In this document: one piece after another, positions 2,737 through 33,743 of the stretch
Layout: each line of letters begins with the position of its first letter
Position numbering within the stretch: position 1 is the stretch's first letter
Virus record (IMG/VR): IMGVR_UViG_3300017917_005114
Location: 1-34,427 of that record
DNA length: 34,427 nucleotides
DNA from: a virus
Strand: one strand, 5' to 3'
Translations under genes and position numbers: made by a program
Notes under the pieces: model-generated
The model's input: the letters and a program-made list of their open reading frames with translations, nothing else
What the model was told of the DNA's origin: nothing
Database searches by the model: none

Positions 2737-3786
2737 ATGGCTTTAATAGATGAATATGTAAAAATAAATATCACAAGAGCGACTATGGGTCTTGAACCTA
2801 TTTCACTTGATACTCTTTTGGTAATAGGAAGTGCAAAAAAAACTGCAAATGTAGTAGCAGATGAGACTATACGTGTTAAAGAATATGGAAGCTTACTAGA
2901 GGTGACTGGCGATTTTGCTACTGATACTAAAGAATACAAGGCAGCATCGCTGTATTTTGGTCAGGAAATCAGGCCAACCAAGTTATTAATAGGCCAAGTA
3001 TTTAAAGATGAAACATTTGAGCAAGCTTATCCTAAAATTCTTCTTAAGAAGAGTAATTTTTATGGTGTGATGATTACTAGTGTTGATTCAGTTGACGTAC
3101 TAGCAATTGCAGCTCTAGTCCAAGCCGATAATTACAGAATATTCGGCACTTCTTCCAGCGATGTAAAAACTTATGTACAAGACGATCAATCTCATATCAT
3201 CTACAAATTAAAAGCTAAAAATTACGATAGAACATTTACCATTTTTAATACAGGAGCAAATACTTCGTATCCTGAAGCTGCGTGGTTTGGTTTAATGCTA
3301 ACTAAAAATGCTGGAAGCGCTACTTGGGCTTATAAAACTTTAACAAATGTCGTAGCTGATAATCTTACCTCCGCGCAGAGAACGGTAATATCTGCTAATA
3401 AAGGAAATTATTACGTCAACTTCGGCGGCAAGGACATAATGCTAGATGGCATTACGGCTCAAGGTGAGTATATCGATATTATGATCGGTATAGACTGGAT
3501 TACTTCTCAAATGAAGCTATCCCTTGCTAATGCACTTGTTACATCCGATAAAATACCTTTTACCAACCAAGGTATCGGTATTGTTGAAAGCATCGTAAGA
3601 AACACTTTAAATGATGCAGCTGATAAATCAATTCTTGATAGAGACAGTATCAAAGTATCCGTACCTGATGTTAGAGATGTATTAGTTAGCAATAGAACCA
3701 ATAGGACTTTACCTGATGTCAAATTTGAAGCAAGGCTAGCTGGAGCAATACATAAAATCGGTATTTCAGGAATATTAACAGTTTAA
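2737..3786 (+). CDS. Contractile tail sheath protein, DUF3383-type
   Basis: This 349-residue protein has the hallmarks of DUF3383, the sheath subunit of contractile-tailed phages. These are an N-terminal VKINITRATMGLEP strand region, a middle domain with YPEAAWFGLMLTKNAGSATWAYKTL, and a C-terminal block ending ..FEARLAGAIHKIGISGILTV that forms the strand handshake between neighbouring subunits. It surrounds the tube and shortens on infection. It starts directly after the terminator gene and is followed by the tube gene 13 bases later. It marks the phage as a myovirus. Confidence 0.85.
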   Translation: MALIDEYVKINITRATMGLEPISLDTLLVIGSAKKTANVVADETIRVKEYGSLLEVTGDFATDTKEYKAASLYFGQEIRPTKLLIGQVFKDETFEQAYPKILLKKSNFYGVMITSVDSVDVLAIAALVQADNYRIFGTSSSDVKTYVQDDQSHIIYKLKAKNYDRTFTIFNTGANTSYPEAAWFGLMLTKNAGSATWAYKTLTNVVADNLTSAQRTVISANKGNYYVNFGGKDIMLDGITAQGEYIDIMIGIDWITSQMKLSLANALVTSDKIPFTNQGIGIVESIVRNTLNDAADKSILDRDSIKVSVPDVRDVLVSNRTNRTLPDVKFEARLAGAIHKIGISGILTV

Positions 3787-3799
3787 TAAGGTACTAAAT

Positions 3800-4225
3800 A
3801 TGGCAATAAAAGTTTTTGACCCCAATCAAATTGGCGTGATAGTAGGAGTTAGTGCAATTCAAGGGTTTGCAGAAGATAGTATGCTAGCGGTAGATACTGA
3901 AGATGCTAAATATGGTATTACTTCAGATGTTCACGGCGATGTTACAAGATTCAGGCAGAACAAGAATATAGCTAAAGTAACTCTAACACTAACTCAAAGC
4001 TCACCTTCAAACGATGTCTTAAGTTCATTTTTAGAAGCCGATCGTAAAAGTAATGCTGGAGTTTTCAATTTTATGATTAAAGATAACTCTGGTACTACAT
4101 TATTTACGAGCGTTAATGCTTATGTTGAGAAACAGGCCACTGTTGAGTTCGGCAATGATAACAAGAATAGAGAATGGACAATTATTTGCATTAATCCTAG
4201 CAACTTTGTCGGAGGGGTTAAATAG
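3800..4225 (+). CDS. Tail tube protein, DUF3277-like
   Basis: A 141-residue protein matching the DUF3277 tube family in length and layout. The N-terminus FDPNQIGVIVGVSAIQGFAEDSM resembles the family 'fdp..v.v..gg..i.Gf..gt', followed by GDVTRFRQNKNIAKVTLTLTQSS, and the end is the family-like 'WTIICINP..FVGG'. It forms the inner tube under the sheath through which DNA passes. Its last base overlaps the GTG of the chaperone gene. Confidence 0.8.
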   Translation: MAIKVFDPNQIGVIVGVSAIQGFAEDSMLAVDTEDAKYGITSDVHGDVTRFRQNKNIAKVTLTLTQSSPSNDVLSSFLEADRKSNAGVFNFMIKDNSGTTLFTSVNAYVEKQATVEFGNDNKNREWTIICINPSNFVGGVK

Positions 4226-4686
4226 TGATAGAAACAAGAAATAAAATCGTAGCAGGACATAGATACGACTGCACTTTATTTCCTGCTATGAAAGGATATA
4301 AGATTGCTCGCAAGATAGCTAAGTTATTTAGCAGCGCATTTGGTGGAGTTGTTCCATCTGATAGTTCTAAATTACTTGATAATGAAATCAACTTTTCAAA
4401 AGTTATAGATGAACTAATTGCGATAGACGAGAATGGTGATTTTATTCTTGAATTACTTGCAAATACCATTAGAGACGAACAGGTTATTAATAGAGGTAGT
4501 TTTGATAAGATATACCAGAATAATTACCTGGAGTTAATACAAGCTCTGCAATTTGTTTTAGAATGCAATTTTAGTGAATTCTTTGATCTCTTTAAAAAAA
4601 AAGATACCAGAGAGCAGATAAACAAACAGGAGGAAGTACCGATGGACGGGCAAATTCAATCTCAGAACGACTCGATAAAGATTTAA
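4225..4686 (+). CDS. Tail assembly chaperone, short form (gpG-like)
   Basis: The GTG start at 4225 is preceded by GGAGGGG with good spacing and overlaps the tube stop. The 153-residue product is helical and acidic/leucine-rich (ALQFVLECNFSEFFDLF), as in phage tail chaperones that bind the tape measure while the tube grows. After residue 123 it runs into a nine-A tract (4594-4602) and then a low-complexity, probably unfolded tail ending QNDSIKI. The meaningful continuation is in the -1 frame (next entry), as in the lambda G/GT pair. Identity comes from the slot between tube and tape measure plus the frameshift architecture. Confidence 0.75.
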   Translation: MIETRNKIVAGHRYDCTLFPAMKGYKIARKIAKLFSSAFGGVVPSDSSKLLDNEINFSKVIDELIAIDENGDFILELLANTIRDEQVINRGSFDKIYQNNYLELIQALQFVLECNFSEFFDLFKKKDTREQINKQEEVPMDGQIQSQNDSIKI

Positions 4687-4844
4687 GCGAAGAATTAATT
4701 ATTTGGCGTCCGATCTTAGAGGGGTTAGTTACGTATACGGAGGTATGTAGTATAATGTCTCTTGATGATATCATGAAAGCAAATGCCCTTCTTGATATGA
4801 AGGCATGCGCGGAAGCTGAAGCATACAAAAAAATACAAAAATGA
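4602..4844 (+). CDS. Tail chaperone -1 frameshift extension (gpT-like; fused product 4225-4844)
   Basis: Starting in the A-run, the -1 frame is open for 80 codons and stops at TGA 4842-4844, which overlaps the tape measure ATG at 4841. The frame opens immediately after an in-frame TAA at 4593-4595, just where slippage would enter it. The product contains IIWRPILEGLVTY and LDDIMKANALLDMKA, coherent protein sequence reminiscent of the DUF6889 proteins found between tail chaperone and tape measure in related phages. A -1 slip at A-AAA-AAA (4596-4602), ribosomal or by RNA polymerase, would make a fused protein of about 206 residues. Independent initiation at ATG 4755 is a weaker alternative. Confidence 0.75.
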   Translation, partial: RYQRADKQTGGSTDGRANSISERLDKDLSEELIIWRPILEGLVTYTEVCSIMSLDDIMKANALLDMKACAEAEAYKKIQK

Positions 4845-6427
4845 TAGCTAGAGAATTACTGATAAAACTGGGTTTTGATATTGACGAGAGCAAGTTAAAT
4901 AAGTTCTCGAAGGTTGTAGATGATGCTAAAAGCAAGATGATTAGTTTAAAGCAGAGCGTAGCAGGAAAGCTTGGGGCATCACTTAAATCTAACAAATATA
5001 AATTCTCTCCTATGGAGGAATATGATAGGTCTGTAATAAATGATACCAAAAATCAGTTAAATAAGTCTTCATCAAGTACTAATACTAAATTCGCCGAACT
5101 AAAGGCCTATAGGGATGAATTGCTAAGTTTCTCTAAAGAAGAAAGAAACGAGATTCTTCTCAATAACAAACTGGAAAAGGCGGCAATAAATGAAGTTAAG
5201 CGAGAAGAAAGGCAAAAGCATCTAGAAAAACAGCGACAATTAAGAGAGGAGCAGAGGCTAGAGGCTAGAAATCGCTTCGCAAGCTGGCGGTCTGGTATGA
5301 TTGCCGCCTCCCGCAAGATAGCAATAGCTGGAGCGGCTATCATGGGAGGATTTGGTCTTGGCTTAAGGTCTACTCTAAAAGATGTTGATAGTTATAAGAA
5401 AGGAGAAAATGAAAACGGCTCTACTTTTACTCCTAAACAAATTGCTGAAGTTGATAAATTTAATGCAAGCCTAAAAACTACTGCCGCCATAACTCGGGAA
5501 ATACGCAATTCTTTTGTAATTGATATGTTACCTGCCGTTAATGAGGTAGTATTATCATTTAAGCAATGGATGATTGTAAATAAGGATTTAATAGGTGGAA
5601 AACTAAAAAAAGCCATAGAAACTGTCACAGATGTATTTAAACTACTTGTGCCAATAATCAGTCGTATTATCGGTATATTTGATATGCTTGTCTCTGCTAC
5701 TGTTGGCTGGAAATACTTAATTACTGCTGTTATAGGTATCGGATTAGCTGTTTGGTTTGCTGGAGTTGCAAGTAGTATCTGGGCAGCAGTAATTGCTTTT
5801 AGAGCGTTTGCAGGGGCAATAGCAGCAGTATTATTAGCTAATCCTCTCCTAACAGCAGCTATTACTGCTATACTAGCAGTTTTAGCTCTGCTTATAGATG
5901 AAATTTGGGTTACCATTGAAGGCGGTGATAGTTTAATTAACAGATTTTTAAAAAGCGATGCTTGGGAGTTTTGTAAAGACCGAATTAACGAAGTAGTAGA
6001 AGCATTGAAGTTCATGTGGGAATGGATAATAAAAGCAAAAGATGGCCTGTTATCTCTTCCAAATAAAACTTGGAAACTCGGCGTAGAACTTAAGGACAAT
6101 ATAAAAGATTTTTTTGATATTGAAAAAAGAATAAAAAATATGGACTTGCCAGCGGGATATACCCCTTTAGGGGCAAAAGTATTTAGTATGCCGTCTTATT
6201 CTCCCGAGGAGCTAGCTACTTCCCCTAGTATAATGCACAGCACTAATTTAAAAAAACATCATAATAACATTACGCAGAAAAACTCGTTTAATATGAATAT
6301 AACTGTTCCAGTCGGGACTTCCGCCGAGCAGGCTAAGGTAATAACTGATCTGGTAAAGGCGGAACTTGAAAAACATCAGGAGTTTGAAACAGAAAAAACA
6401 CTAGCAGCAATTGGAGCGTATTATTAA
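4841..6427 (+). CDS. Tail tape measure protein
   Basis: A 528-residue protein setting tail length. Residues ~1-150 are charged and coiled-coil-like (for example KEERNEILLNNKLEKAAINEVKREER). They are followed by a glycine/alanine hydrophobic stretch near 160-175 and a long hydrophobic region at roughly 270-355 with several membrane-like segments. That pattern is typical of tape measures that enter the inner membrane at injection. The N-terminal LLIKLGFDIDESKLNKFSKVV recalls the start of related tape measures. It is short for a myovirus. At about 1.5 angstrom per residue it implies a tail near 80 nm. No lytic transglycosylase domain is apparent. ATG overlaps the chaperone-extension stop. Confidence 0.8.
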   Translation: MIARELLIKLGFDIDESKLNKFSKVVDDAKSKMISLKQSVAGKLGASLKSNKYKFSPMEEYDRSVINDTKNQLNKSSSSTNTKFAELKAYRDELLSFSKEERNEILLNNKLEKAAINEVKREERQKHLEKQRQLREEQRLEARNRFASWRSGMIAASRKIAIAGAAIMGGFGLGLRSTLKDVDSYKKGENENGSTFTPKQIAEVDKFNASLKTTAAITREIRNSFVIDMLPAVNEVVLSFKQWMIVNKDLIGGKLKKAIETVTDVFKLLVPIISRIIGIFDMLVSATVGWKYLITAVIGIGLAVWFAGVASSIWAAVIAFRAFAGAIAAVLLANPLLTAAITAILAVLALLIDEIWVTIEGGDSLINRFLKSDAWEFCKDRINEVVEALKFMWEWIIKAKDGLLSLPNKTWKLGVELKDNIKDFFDIEKRIKNMDLPAGYTPLGAKVFSMPSYSPEELATSPSIMHSTNLKKHHNNITQKNSFNMNITVPVGTSAEQAKVITDLVKAELEKHQEFETEKTLAAIGAYY

Positions 6428-15155: not shown

Positions 15156-15593
15156 TTATATTTCTTCAATATGATTATCGCCAATTATAATTACATCATT
15201 TTGTAACTCAAATAATTGATTTCTTAACTCTTCAATATCATGGTCTTTCTGAGTTATTGCTTCACCATTTAAAGCTAACGTAGCTTCTAAATTAGTAATA
15301 ATATTTTGTTTCTCAGTTATAGCCTGATTTTTTAAATTAAGTTCTACTTGAAGACCATTAATAGCATTATCCTTTTGTGTTATAGTCTGACTCTTCGCAT
15401 TTAACTCAGACTGTAAAGTTCCAATGGTATTATCTTTCTGTGTTATGGTTTGAGTTTTAAGATTAACTTCAGCTTGAAGGGTTACAATAGTGTGATTTTT
15501 CTCTGCTAGTTCTTTTTTTAGCTCAGCGACTCTTGCAAGTAACTCATCCCTTTGTATCTGAATAGGAGCTTTTGGCAATTCTTTCATTTTCAT
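15156..15593 (-). CDS. Coiled-coil protein with five 21-residue repeats
   Basis: A 145-residue protein with no signal peptide. Residues ~29-133 consist of five consecutive 21-residue units (three heptads each), e.g. ITQKDNTIGTLQSELNAKSQ, with 63-base DNA periodicity at about 15195-15509. They predict a long regular coiled coil of roughly 15 nm. The start overlaps the barrel gene stop by 4 bases (ATGA). The protein precedes the spanins, so it may be a lysis or virion-length accessory, or an adaptor to a host protein. I recognise no named family. Copy number of such repeats can vary between strains. Confidence 0.65.
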   Translation of the reverse strand: MKMKELPKAPIQIQRDELLARVAELKKELAEKNHTIVTLQAEVNLKTQTITQKDNTIGTLQSELNAKSQTITQKDNAINGLQVELNLKNQAITEKQNIITNLEATLALNGEAITQKDHDIEELRNQLFELQNDVIIIGDNHIEEI

Positions 15594-16267
15594 ATTGCAA
15601 ACCTCATTCCTAGAGTTATATTGTGGATTTCATAAGTACGATTACCTATATTTTGAATCCCTCCTATGATTTTTCTTTTATTACTGCCTAAGTTAAAATA
15701 GTTATAGCTGATTTCACCAGTTACATTATCACTTAGTTTTATATCACTACCTAGGGTTAATTTATAGGCAAACTGATTTCTTTTTTTACTGATTTTGTCT
15801 AACGGATAAATAACATTATCATCCCGAGAGATAGCATAACCTCCCGCAGATTCTTTTAAATGTCCAATACCAACGCCACCACCAACAAAAGGTATAAAAT
15901 TGCCAATAGTTACTATATCTTTATAAATATTAAACATTAAGCTATCTGCCTTGGTTTTTGTAGATATTTTAAAAACATCGCAATTAGGGTTAGTAGATAT
16001 TTCAGATGTTCTAAATAGAAAGTAATAATCAATTACTGTTTCTATCCTGATGCCGTTATCAAATTTATAACCAATACCAGCTTCAATTAGCGGGAAACTA
16101 TCTGATAGTTTAACTTTCCCTTCAAAATCATGGTTACTGAATTTTGTAGTTTTAATGTTATTTAATCCGACACCACCTTTTAAGTAGAAACTTCCATCAG
16201 CATAAGTATTAGAAATAAAAGTTAACATTAGTAATACTGAAAATAGTTTAATCATTTTTTTACTCAT
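15590..16267 (-). CDS. Outer-membrane beta-barrel protein (secreted)
   Basis: A 225-residue protein with a clear Sec signal peptide (KKMIKLFSVLLMLTFISNTYA, cleavage after residue ~23). The mature part alternates hydrophobic and polar residues in about eight strands: DGSFYLKGGVGLN, PLIEAGIGYKFDNGIRIETVIDYYF, IPFVGGGVGIGHL, AYKLTLGSDIKL, TGEISYNYFNLG. It ends HNITLGMRFAI, a typical C-terminal strand ending on a bulky residue (I rather than F). This is the OmpA/OmpW-like small porin type abundant in Rickettsiales. It lies 4 bases downstream of the resolvase gene. As a phage-borne barrel it may be a lysogenic-conversion factor. Confidence 0.75.
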   Translation of the reverse strand: MSKKMIKLFSVLLMLTFISNTYADGSFYLKGGVGLNNIKTTKFSNHDFEGKVKLSDSFPLIEAGIGYKFDNGIRIETVIDYYFLFRTSEISTNPNCDVFKISTKTKADSLMFNIYKDIVTIGNFIPFVGGGVGIGHLKESAGGYAISRDDNVIYPLDKISKKRNQFAYKLTLGSDIKLSDNVTGEISYNYFNLGSNKRKIIGGIQNIGNRTYEIHNITLGMRFAI

Positions 16268-18882: not shown

Positions 18883-20154
18883 TTAAATAGATAACTTAAC
18901 ACCGACAAGAGCTACAGTACCTTTTACTTTTCTTGCTTTTAAATTAGGATAGAATTCAGGTTTGCCTTTAAGGGTGTAAGCATGGATTTCAGCGTAAGGC
19001 TTAAGTCCTGGTGCAAGTATATGACTTACTGCTAATTTTACTGAGTTCACCTTATTTTTAAACTGCTCTGAGGCAAAATATGACAATGAAGTTGTCGTAG
19101 CTTTATTATAAGTATAGGCAATACCTGCATTATAGTATTGAGACTTACGGTTACCTTTATGTAACTCTTTTGAAGTAAAACTTTTACCAAAAGAACCATA
19201 ACAGGCATTATACTTAAAATCACCAACCTTTAATTCAGTACCGATATTATAAGCTTTTAAGTCGCTTAATTTATACTCTAGTGGATTTTTATCGTCTTTA
19301 TTAGCAAATTTCTTAATTTTACCAGCAGATTTGCCGTATTCACCAGTTAGAGCTAGTTTTAATTCTGCTTCTTCCGTTAATTTCTGTTCAAGTACTATCC
19401 CACTAGTAATAGCATCTTTAACTGATCTGTCAATTTCAAACCTATCTATGGCAGGCTCTCCTACGGCATACTTTTTTATTCCGTCTGATTTATCTGATGG
19501 TTTCTCTACTCCAGTATTAGCAGAATCAGGAGTATAAGATATACCAAGCCTGATTTTACTAGAATCGGTTAAATCAAACTTAGGAGTATAATAATTTATT
19601 GTTCTTGGCGGTTCACTACTGTAAGTGGCAGAATCCATACTTGCAATTATCTGATCACCAAGGAAAGCTCCTTCGGAAGTTAAAAATGATGGAGTTGCTT
19701 TTGTATTTTGTTTTAGGTATTCGGTGCTAGTTTTAATATATTTTGTAGGTATAGAACCATCACTTACCATCATATTTTTAGCAGCAGGAATAGGTGAACC
19801 AGCTTCAATTCGCCCAAACTCATGTTCTAAAAATACGTATGAGCCGTTATAATCCTTATTAACTTTTCTTTTAGTTGTTGGTACTAATATAATTTTTGCA
19901 CCATAAGTAATATCATCAGTAGTATTTGATATGGCAGCAAATAAAGCCGTATCGTTATAAAAGGCAAAACCTCTTTTATTAGCTGAAATATTTTTTTCTG
20001 TTCCTTTTAATTTACCCTGATTGCTAAATCCACTTTCAAAAGCAGCATATGCCCCAAGTTTTATATTTAAATCCGATACTACAGGCAATGGGTCGCCAGC
20101 TAAAGCTGTACTACTTGCAAGTAAAGCTCCAAGAAATAGTGACATTTTTTTCAT
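18883..20154 (-). CDS. Outer-membrane porin
   Basis: A 423-residue protein with a signal peptide (MKKMSLFLGALLASSTALAG) and a mature chain of alternating beta-strands as in trimeric 16-strand porins: LNIKLGAYAAFESGFSNQ, GFAFYNDTALFAAISN, TYGAKIILVP, YVFLEHEFGRIEAGSPI (the 'G....G...P' element before the constriction loop), SKIRLGISYTP, ..KLALTGEYGKSAG, and a closing strand ALVGVKLSI. Porins of this type occur in Rickettsiales chromosomes. A copy between phage modules is unusual cargo. It is monocistronic, convergent with the parA block. AAAGG precedes the start. Confidence 0.8.
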   Translation of the reverse strand: MKKMSLFLGALLASSTALAGDPLPVVSDLNIKLGAYAAFESGFSNQGKLKGTEKNISANKRGFAFYNDTALFAAISNTTDDITYGAKIILVPTTKRKVNKDYNGSYVFLEHEFGRIEAGSPIPAAKNMMVSDGSIPTKYIKTSTEYLKQNTKATPSFLTSEGAFLGDQIIASMDSATYSSEPPRTINYYTPKFDLTDSSKIRLGISYTPDSANTGVEKPSDKSDGIKKYAVGEPAIDRFEIDRSVKDAITSGIVLEQKLTEEAELKLALTGEYGKSAGKIKKFANKDDKNPLEYKLSDLKAYNIGTELKVGDFKYNACYGSFGKSFTSKELHKGNRKSQYYNAGIAYTYNKATTTSLSYFASEQFKNKVNSVKLAVSHILAPGLKPYAEIHAYTLKGKPEFYPNLKARKVKGTVALVGVKLSI

Positions 20155-31517: not shown

Positions 31518-31774
31518 AAAGATTTTTAGTATTGATATTTCCTATTGTATTAACAAGTATTTTTTTCCTGTTAAACTTATTATTAGCATATAGTTTAACT
31601 GAAAATTGGGTTTTACAAATAATAATAGGAACAATTGGTATAATTTTATTCATGTATGGAATGGTCTATACTGGGATTGATGACTACTATTATGATAATG
31701 AGAGTCATCAGAAAGTAATAAATAAATGTAAAATATTAAAATCCAAAATAATTAATCTATTATCAAGGGGTTAA
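31514..31774 (+). CDS. Two-pass membrane protein
   Basis: An 86-residue protein with two hydrophobic helices (residues ~3-27, FLVLIFPIVLTSIFFLLNLLLAY, and ~33-53, LQIIIGTIGIILFMYGMVY), a tyrosine/aspartate-rich turn (DDYYYDNES) and a lysine-rich tail. Last of a four-gene run. Overlaps the stop of the opposite-strand gene by 4 bases. Not a recognised family. Confidence 0.5.
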   Translation: MKRFLVLIFPIVLTSIFFLLNLLLAYSLTENWVLQIIIGTIGIILFMYGMVYTGIDDYYYDNESHQKVINKCKILKSKIINLLSRG

Positions 31775-32391
31775 TCATTTTTGAATTTATTTGAGGTATC
31801 TTTATGCATGATATTCATGATATTTACCAGTAAATTAATATTATCTATACATCTTATGTTATTATTGTATTCGTTCATTTCTACTAATCGCATAGATTGA
31901 TCGAATTGAATTAAATTTAATTTAGCTTCTATTATTCTTTCGTTATCGTATCCTCGTTTATTTACTCTTAAAATTTCTAAAAATCCTATTTCTTCTAGTA
32001 TGCTGATAATTCTTGCTAACGTATTTCTCTTTTTGATTTGACTAAGTATTAATAACTTTCTAAATTCCAAGATAATATATATTGATGAACCAGTGGCCTT
32101 TATATCTAAAAAACCATCACTTAAATTCCATATTAATTTACTTGACGATTCTTGAAGTAAAGCTGATAAAACTGCTTTAGCTTGTCTCTTTAAGTAATTT
32201 AAGAGTTTATATTTACTGTCGTTTAAACAAAAACAGAATTTATACCAATATTTAGGATTGTTAAGAAATCGATATTTTTTATAAAGACCCTCATTCTGTT
32301 TTTCTAATTCCAAAAAAAAATCAATAAAGTATCTCTCTCTTCCAAGTTTACTAATATTTCTAATTTCACTCATATAACAAGTTTTTTCCAT
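31771..32391 (-). CDS. Putative winged-helix replication/regulatory protein
   Basis: A 206-residue basic protein. Residues ~105-160 show a winged-helix outline: LEFRKLLILSQIKKRNTLARIISILEEIGFLEILRVNKRGYDNERIIEAKLN. The 'TLARIISILEEIGFLEI' part is a recognition helix and the following strands are the wing. The N-terminal 90 residues are aromatic/lysine-rich (KYWYKFCFCLNDSKYK). No known Rep signature, but its architecture resembles the first part of the DnaA-like protein. Located 42 bases downstream of the transporter gene. Confidence 0.5.
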   Translation of the reverse strand: MEKTCYMSEIRNISKLGRERYFIDFFLELEKQNEGLYKKYRFLNNPKYWYKFCFCLNDSKYKLLNYLKRQAKAVLSALLQESSSKLIWNLSDGFLDIKATGSSIYIILEFRKLLILSQIKKRNTLARIISILEEIGFLEILRVNKRGYDNERIIEAKLNLIQFDQSMRLVEMNEYNNNIRCIDNINLLVNIMNIMHKDTSNKFKND

Positions 32392-32432: not shown

Positions 32433-33743
32433 TTAAAATTTTACATAATAATTTCCGTTTTCTTTTTCAATTTTTATAAATTCGAATACTCCCCATGTAT
32501 ATACGATAGTAATCACTAAAAAAATAATAAATACTCCATATACTCCAATCATATTATTCATATAATCCATACCAAGTGAAGTTATTATGTATAAAAAAAC
32601 ATGAGCCGTACCATTTAATAATGCAGAAAATTTAAAACGTTCTAGAGTGCCAAAACTCATCATAAATACTCCCTTGGCAGGTACAGTAGAATTACCTAAT
32701 AGGACAACTAAAACTTGAATTAATAATAAAAACGAAGAGGAGTCTGCTATAGTTAATAAATATGGCAAAATGAATATAAAAGGAAAGTATAAAAATAACT
32801 TGAATTTAAGAATTTTAAGAGGGTGAATAAATTTTGTAAGATATATCCAACAAAATAATCCAGATAAATTAAATAAACCTAAAATTAAATTTTGATGAAT
32901 TACCATTTCTTTAGTAAATCCAAAACTTTTTTGTAGAATATTTCCGCAATATACATAGGAAAAATAGAAAGATATAGGCCAACCGCAGAAAACGCAAAAA
33001 TAAGCAAATTTTATTCTGAATGTAGCAATATATAATAGACTTTTTAAACCTCTATTAACTATTTGTTGCCTACCATTTTCTTGGTTTGAATTTATATTAA
33101 GAAATTTTTTTAACTTGGTTTGAATTTGCAAAAACTCTTTTGATTCAATAAATCTTAATCTTATAAAAAACCCTAAAAAGATAATTGTTGTTCCAAATAA
33201 AAAAGCAATTCTCCAGTTCAAGTTAAAATATAAAATAAGTTTTACTAAAAACAATGATATTACTGTTCCTATTACCCCAGCATAAGATACAAGAGCAGTA
33301 GAAAAATACCTTTTAGGTATAGCTATATTTTCTGCTATATATATTTCTGATGCATTAGTTTCTCCAATAGATGCAAAACCTTGAAATAAACGACAAATAG
33401 TTAGAATTACAAAAGCTGAAAATCCTATTTCTTTATAACTAGGTAACAATGTGATTATACCACTACAGGTACCCATTAAAATCATACTAAAAATCAGAAC
33501 TTTCTTTCTGCCCCACCTATCTCCAACCCAACCCCATGTCAAACCTCCTAGTGGTTTTAGAGCAAAAGTAGAACAAAAACTGATTGCAGCCCCATATTGA
33601 ACAAGCCATGGAATTGTAGGATCAAGAAATAGTTCATTAAGTATTGATGCCATATGAACGTACAACATAAGGTCAAAGTACTCTATGAATGTTCCTATCA
33701 TTAATATTAAGCGATTAAATTTATAGTTTTGATGTGTGTGCAT
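32433..33743 (-). CDS. MFS transporter, ProP-like metabolite:H+ symporter
   Basis: A 436-residue 12-helix transporter. The metabolite:H+ symporter signature is clear: FIEYFDLMLYVHMASILNELF at the first helix, ALKPLGGLTWGWVGDRWGRKK (residues 62-81; the family's 'RPLGG...G..GDR.GRK' loop), and LFQGFASIGETNASEIY ('R..QG...GGE...'). Mid-length loops fit. Rickettsia carry many proP paralogues, including on plasmids, and it probably imports osmolytes or amino acids. Whether it is cargo of this element or marks a boundary is open. Confidence 0.8.
   Translation of the reverse strand: MHTHQNYKFNRLILMIGTFIEYFDLMLYVHMASILNELFLDPTIPWLVQYGAAISFCSTFALKPLGGLTWGWVGDRWGRKKVLIFSMILMGTCSGIITLLPSYKEIGFSAFVILTICRLFQGFASIGETNASEIYIAENIAIPKRYFSTALVSYAGVIGTVISLFLVKLILYFNLNWRIAFLFGTTIIFLGFFIRLRFIESKEFLQIQTKLKKFLNINSNQENGRQQIVNRGLKSLLYIATFRIKFAYFCVFCGWPISFYFSYVYCGNILQKSFGFTKEMVIHQNLILGLFNLSGLFCWIYLTKFIHPLKILKFKLFLYFPFIFILPYLLTIADSSSFLLLIQVLVVLLGNSTVPAKGVFMMSFGTLERFKFSALLNGTAHVFLYIITSLGMDYMNNMIGVYGVFIIFLVITIVYTWGVFEFIKIEKENGNYYVKF

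Follow-up and report, generated by a model that had tools for sequence, protein, structure and literature searches.

Conserved slip site and -1 frame extension point to programmed frameshifting in the tail assembly chaperone gene of a contractile-tailed phage

How do tail chaperone genes give rise to two products? In phage lambda, G and G-T, situated before the tape measure gene, provide a short chaperone and its -1 extended version, and this G/GT frameshift is widely conserved in long-tailed phages (PMC5009743); for HK97-type chaperone genes, 6-7% frameshifting was obtained in assays (PMC3711429). For the tail chaperones of the Vandenendeviridae and Andersonviridae (phage Adele, Felix O1-like phages), a conserved -1 frameshift at GTTTTT was argued in 2025 (PMC12846349). 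The cellular replication gene dnaX, in turn, is the model for one gene family using either of two mechanisms, at a nine-base run or at a heptamer: transcriptional slippage on a nine-run in T. thermophilus, ribosomal slippage on A_AAA_AAG in E. coli (PMC5009743).

Here, we analyzed a stretch of viral DNA of 34,427 nucleotides with a GC content of 32% (hereafter, the window), whose tail genes lie on the + strand in the G/GT order, with a chaperone between tail tube and tape measure and a -1 open reading frame (ORF) ending at the tape measure start. A tail sheath gene (DUF3383; 2737..3786; PF11863, E 3e-35), whose homologues are annotated as tail sheath, is followed by a virion structural protein in the tail-tube position (3800..4225; phrog_280, E 2e-32), placed between sheath and chaperone like its counterpart in NC_048766, annotated as putative tail tube. 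The chaperone gene (4225..4686, GTG start, 153 aa) scores 53.6 bits against Pfam PF21822 (Phage_TAC_15; E 4.3e-14), well above the curated cut-off of 22, and also matches phrog_1613 (E 2e-15); by analogy with lambda gpG, it would encode the short form, TAC-N. Downstream, the tape measure protein (4841..6427) matches the tail length tape measure family phrog_8125 (E 3e-19); no obvious Shine-Dalgarno sequence precedes its ATG (4815-4843). Lambda is a siphophage with another slip heptamer, likened to the window by this arrangement rather than by protein alignment. The Vandenendeviridae and Andersonviridae include relatives of the window locus and resemble it in neighbourhood, in a related sheath and chaperone, in a -1 domain before the tape measure and in a slip site at the 3' end of the chaperone gene. 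Their motif, GTTTTT / T_TTT_TTC, lies about six codons further upstream, where the window has no T-run; it carries a run of nine A's instead.

This run (A9, 4594-4602) is part of TTTAAAAAAAAAG at 4591-4603 and reads AAA AAA AAA in the chaperone phase, with the in-frame heptamer A_AAA_AAA at 4596-4602. The -1 frame is closed upstream by a TAA at 4593-4595, so that any slip has to fall on the A-run itself. From there it stays open for 82 sense codons, stop to stop (4596..4844, including the TGA at 4842-4844), 80 of which follow a slip at 4596-4602, and its TGA forms an ATGA overlap with the tape measure ATG at 4841. Its conserved core (EELIIWRPILEG...DDIMKANALLDMKA, 4689..4841) was delimited by alignment, and two families of unknown function, phrog_4364 (E 1.4e-5) and phrog_16972 (E 4.7e-5), match the C-terminal part of the frame. 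The A-run in the chaperone gene, the TAA, the open -1 frame and the ATGA overlap had been proposed by a first-pass annotation made from the letters alone, which gave the 80-codon figure, and they were borne out, as was its statement that standard annotation would leave 4687-4840 empty: no + strand ORF of at least 50 aa fills this gap.

How much of this might be expected by chance? The 17 structural genes hold 588 open stretches in their -1 frame; apart from the one at issue none is longer than 39 codons, and 82 is thus far outside the background. The A-run, which is the sole Lys-Lys-Lys in the structural genes, carries no such weight: shuffling of synonymous codons predicts 1.0 run of at least nine A or T in these genes and one is seen, and we therefore dropped A9 alone as evidence. 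In a phage this AT-rich, a nine-run expected once by chance need not mean selection for length. Likewise, as the structural genes contain 38 in-frame X_XXY_YYZ heptamers, the heptamer by itself is weak evidence. It is because of conservation that we regard the finding as real.

Together with seven further viral contigs, the window forms a clade of eight records, which stem from different metagenomes and comprise five distinct chaperone sequences; the chaperone of the window is 82-87% identical to three of the others and near-identical to the fourth. T-A9-GATACC is invariant in all eight records, as expected of the conserved slip sequence of a G/GT frameshift; the TAA preceding it is found in all clade relatives, and the -1 frame is open throughout, always ending in the ATGA overlap. 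Around this fixed site the sequence changes, with a 6-nt indel directly upstream of A9 between the window and the other lineages and a varying position of the zero-frame stop. Conservation is mosaic along the locus: between the window and two of the relatives (L013 and L014), the sheath is 49-51%, the chaperone 82-84% and the -1 domain 92-96% identical. With the sheath this divergent, the slip site has outlived much change nearby. Homopolymers are error-prone, and a true run of eight or ten A's, in a gene that is continuous or degraded, would mimic what we describe; with nine A's and both frames open in eight records from different metagenomes, and with the -1 arrangement recurring in dozens of loci that have other slip sequences, we consider a sequencing or assembly error highly improbable.

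Selection on the extension, proposed by the first-pass annotation from a conserved-looking core, proved to be strong and purifying. For its final 51 codons in the -1 frame, dN/dS was 0.015-0.064 in nine of ten pairs (dS 0.46-1.41); the tenth and closest pair gave 0.235, from just four changes. Read in the zero or +1 frame, the same 51 codons showed no comparable constraint, with ratios mostly near or above 1. Could the downstream domain then be an independently started gene, in line with the separate small genes annotated in MiCath, Yersinia phage P778, Hafnia phage SarahDanielle and ventosus? The -1 frame has a single usable internal ATG region, the first ATG lying at 4755, inside the conserved domain and with 29 codons to go, and the window contains no ATG, GTG or TTG in this frame before that position. 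Yet the codons 5' of 4755, WRPILEGLVTYTEV, are conserved and under purifying selection and, as they precede the first -1 ATG, must be translated from upstream. Coding selection thus acts on a frame devoid of a start of its own. Moreover, the -1 frame reaches well into the chaperone gene in every relative except AP45, the only one in which it was not seen open well back into that gene (overlap of 7 nt). A separately started gene is hence very unlikely.

Beyond the clade, a profile of the -1 domain recovered 143 relatives from viral contigs, 80 of which we retained, and six from bacterial genomes; removal of duplicates left 68 loci, 61 of them with a complete upstream frame. In all of these 61 distinct loci the downstream domain lies in the -1 frame, and in none in +1. 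The same holds for eleven annotated phage records (Yersinia phage P778, Listeria phage LPML1, ventosus, PSTCR3, Acinetobacter phage vB_AciJM_313, SarahDanielle, phiEt88, AAM37, POR1, MiCath and MII_003), all of which have a -1 frame that reaches without a stop into the chaperone gene. Comparison with relatives had been suggested as a check on both the A-run and the -1 frame: both are kept in the clade, but the A-run is missing in the distant homologues, which mostly have a T-run slip site instead. In most homologues, this T-run falls on conserved Asn-Phe-x-x-Phe-Phe codons, as T_TTT_TTC, T_TTT_TTT or within CTTTTTACG or GTTTTTACT; some, e.g. L052, L064 and AAM37, show no clear run at this position. 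The window there reads GAA TTC TTT GAT, without a run, and its A-run starts three codons later. The first-pass annotation had also named what would speak against frameshifting, namely homologues without any A-run in which the downstream frame is an independently started gene. Such cases occur on the surface only, since the -1 frame that holds the separately annotated downstream genes extends, free of stops, back into the chaperone gene; we take these annotations to be likely artefacts. In annotated phages (L015, L016, L020 and L053-L057), the -1 domain is either unannotated or a separate small gene, and a joined frameshift product was annotated in none of the annotated phage records opened.

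Slip-site conservation throughout the clade and the -1 arrangement across distant homologues together support the programmed -1 frameshift that the first-pass annotation had put forward. What would its products be? The gene almost certainly yields a short and a long chaperone through a -1 slip on A9, and we consider it probable that it is the ribosome that slips. Most translation would end in the 153-aa short form, while a minority of ribosomes would slip back by one base as two Lys-tRNAs re-pair on A_AAA_AAA at 4596-4602, and would continue in the -1 frame from 4602 to 4844. The predicted long form (TAC-NC, gpGT-like, 206 aa) would comprise 126 codons followed by RYQRADKQ... as C-terminal extension. 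By analogy with lambda, both forms may coat the tape measure protein, with the -1 domain recruiting tail-tube subunits. We infer production of the fusion, the ribosome as the slipping agent, a ratio between the two forms and the chaperone role from the conserved arrangement. Translation of the tape measure may further be coupled to frameshifted ribosomes; if so, the amount of tape measure would be tied to that of the long chaperone form. In this group of phages, the extension of about 80 codons adds an overlooked gene product that standard annotation misses.

Ribosomal slippage is the parsimonious default, given the ribosome-type sites of most homologues and the in-frame position of the heptamer. 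Neither a stimulatory structure nor a Shine-Dalgarno-like element, which are common at ribosomal frameshift sites albeit not strictly required, was detected: pseudoknot-free 88-nt folds downstream of the run scored no better than shuffled sequences, either in four lineages (z +0.1 to +1.65) or in the sister clade introduced below, so that a stem-loop stimulator was discarded, and the clade alignment showed no Shine-Dalgarno-like stimulator just upstream of the A-run. In the window and L008 only, the interval 4628-4686 contains an AGGAGG (~4630) and then an ATG at 4642 in the chaperone frame, 14 codons from the stop. As a start or stimulator this pair was rejected, being absent in L009, L013 and L014.

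The same chaperone pair could arise through RNA polymerase slippage, whereby some transcripts would carry ten A's and be translated normally. In bacterial transcription, nine A or T in a row are an efficient slip site, as exploited by T. thermophilus dnaX, and for ribosomes of E. coli A_AAA_AAA is reported to be a far weaker site than A_AAA_AAG (PMC5009743); A9 attains the length given for transcriptional slippage, whether at least eight (PMC3711429) or nine (PMC5009743). Slippage on poly(A) has been described for AT-rich endosymbionts, and the host here looks rickettsial. To this adds the lack of a detected ribosomal stimulator, as well as the distribution of nine-runs, which are limited to the window clade (A9) and a sister clade (T9), the other 55 of the 61 loci having runs of at most seven. 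This second clade (L042/L043 from IMG/VR, sister grouping with support 96/93) likewise has a TAA closing the -1 frame right before its nine-run, and its -1 domain is 62% identical to that of the window, whereas the run itself is T9 (AAT TTT TTT TTG). On the other hand, the great majority of homologues have slip sites too short for polymerase slippage, both clades are AT-rich (32-36% GC), with one nine-run expected by chance in the structural genes, and A9 and T9 both hold in-frame ribosomal heptamers. The dnaX level in T. thermophilus (~50% full-length product) also far exceeds the frameshifting of a few per cent that is typical of tail chaperone genes; there, slippage has been demonstrated, while A9 is a candidate site. 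Whereas the first-pass annotation had given the two mechanisms equal odds, we rate polymerase slippage as less likely than ribosomal slippage, doubtful albeit not negligible.

More speculatively still, an ancestral ribosomal T-run of five to seven at Asn-Phe-x-x-Phe-Phe might have been lost in favor of a downstream T9 or A9 at which RNA polymerase slips, in AT-rich and probably rickettsial hosts. Though this seems rather improbable to us, it would parallel, in a tail chaperone gene, the change of mechanism known for dnaX; if transcription indeed makes the second form, this would be a new way to set the chaperone ratio in phage tails. The window adds a member with a relocated and changed slip site to an already known type of frameshift; the one feature that could be novel is a possible use of polymerase slippage. 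The comparison illustrates that, within a conserved recoding event, the slip site can shift in position and sequence, from T5-T7 to T9 or A9, with the -1 arrangement remaining fixed.

Which bacterium might the phage infect? Sheath relatives were not found in genome contigs, and the six relatives of the -1 domain in bacterial genomes are all in distant prophages (Budviciaceae, Leminorella, Sporomusaceae). The window itself encodes a protein resembling the rickettsial adhesin Adr (15590-16267; NF052636, E 5e-30, below the curated cut-off) and an MFS transporter (32433-33743) whose closest matches among plasmid records are to Candidatus Megaera / Megaira. Together, these two genes make a Rickettsiales host likely. 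A porin-like protein is encoded at 18883-20154, and a second nine-run, T9 on the coding strand (32312-32320), lies near the start of a minus-strand ORF (31771-32391).
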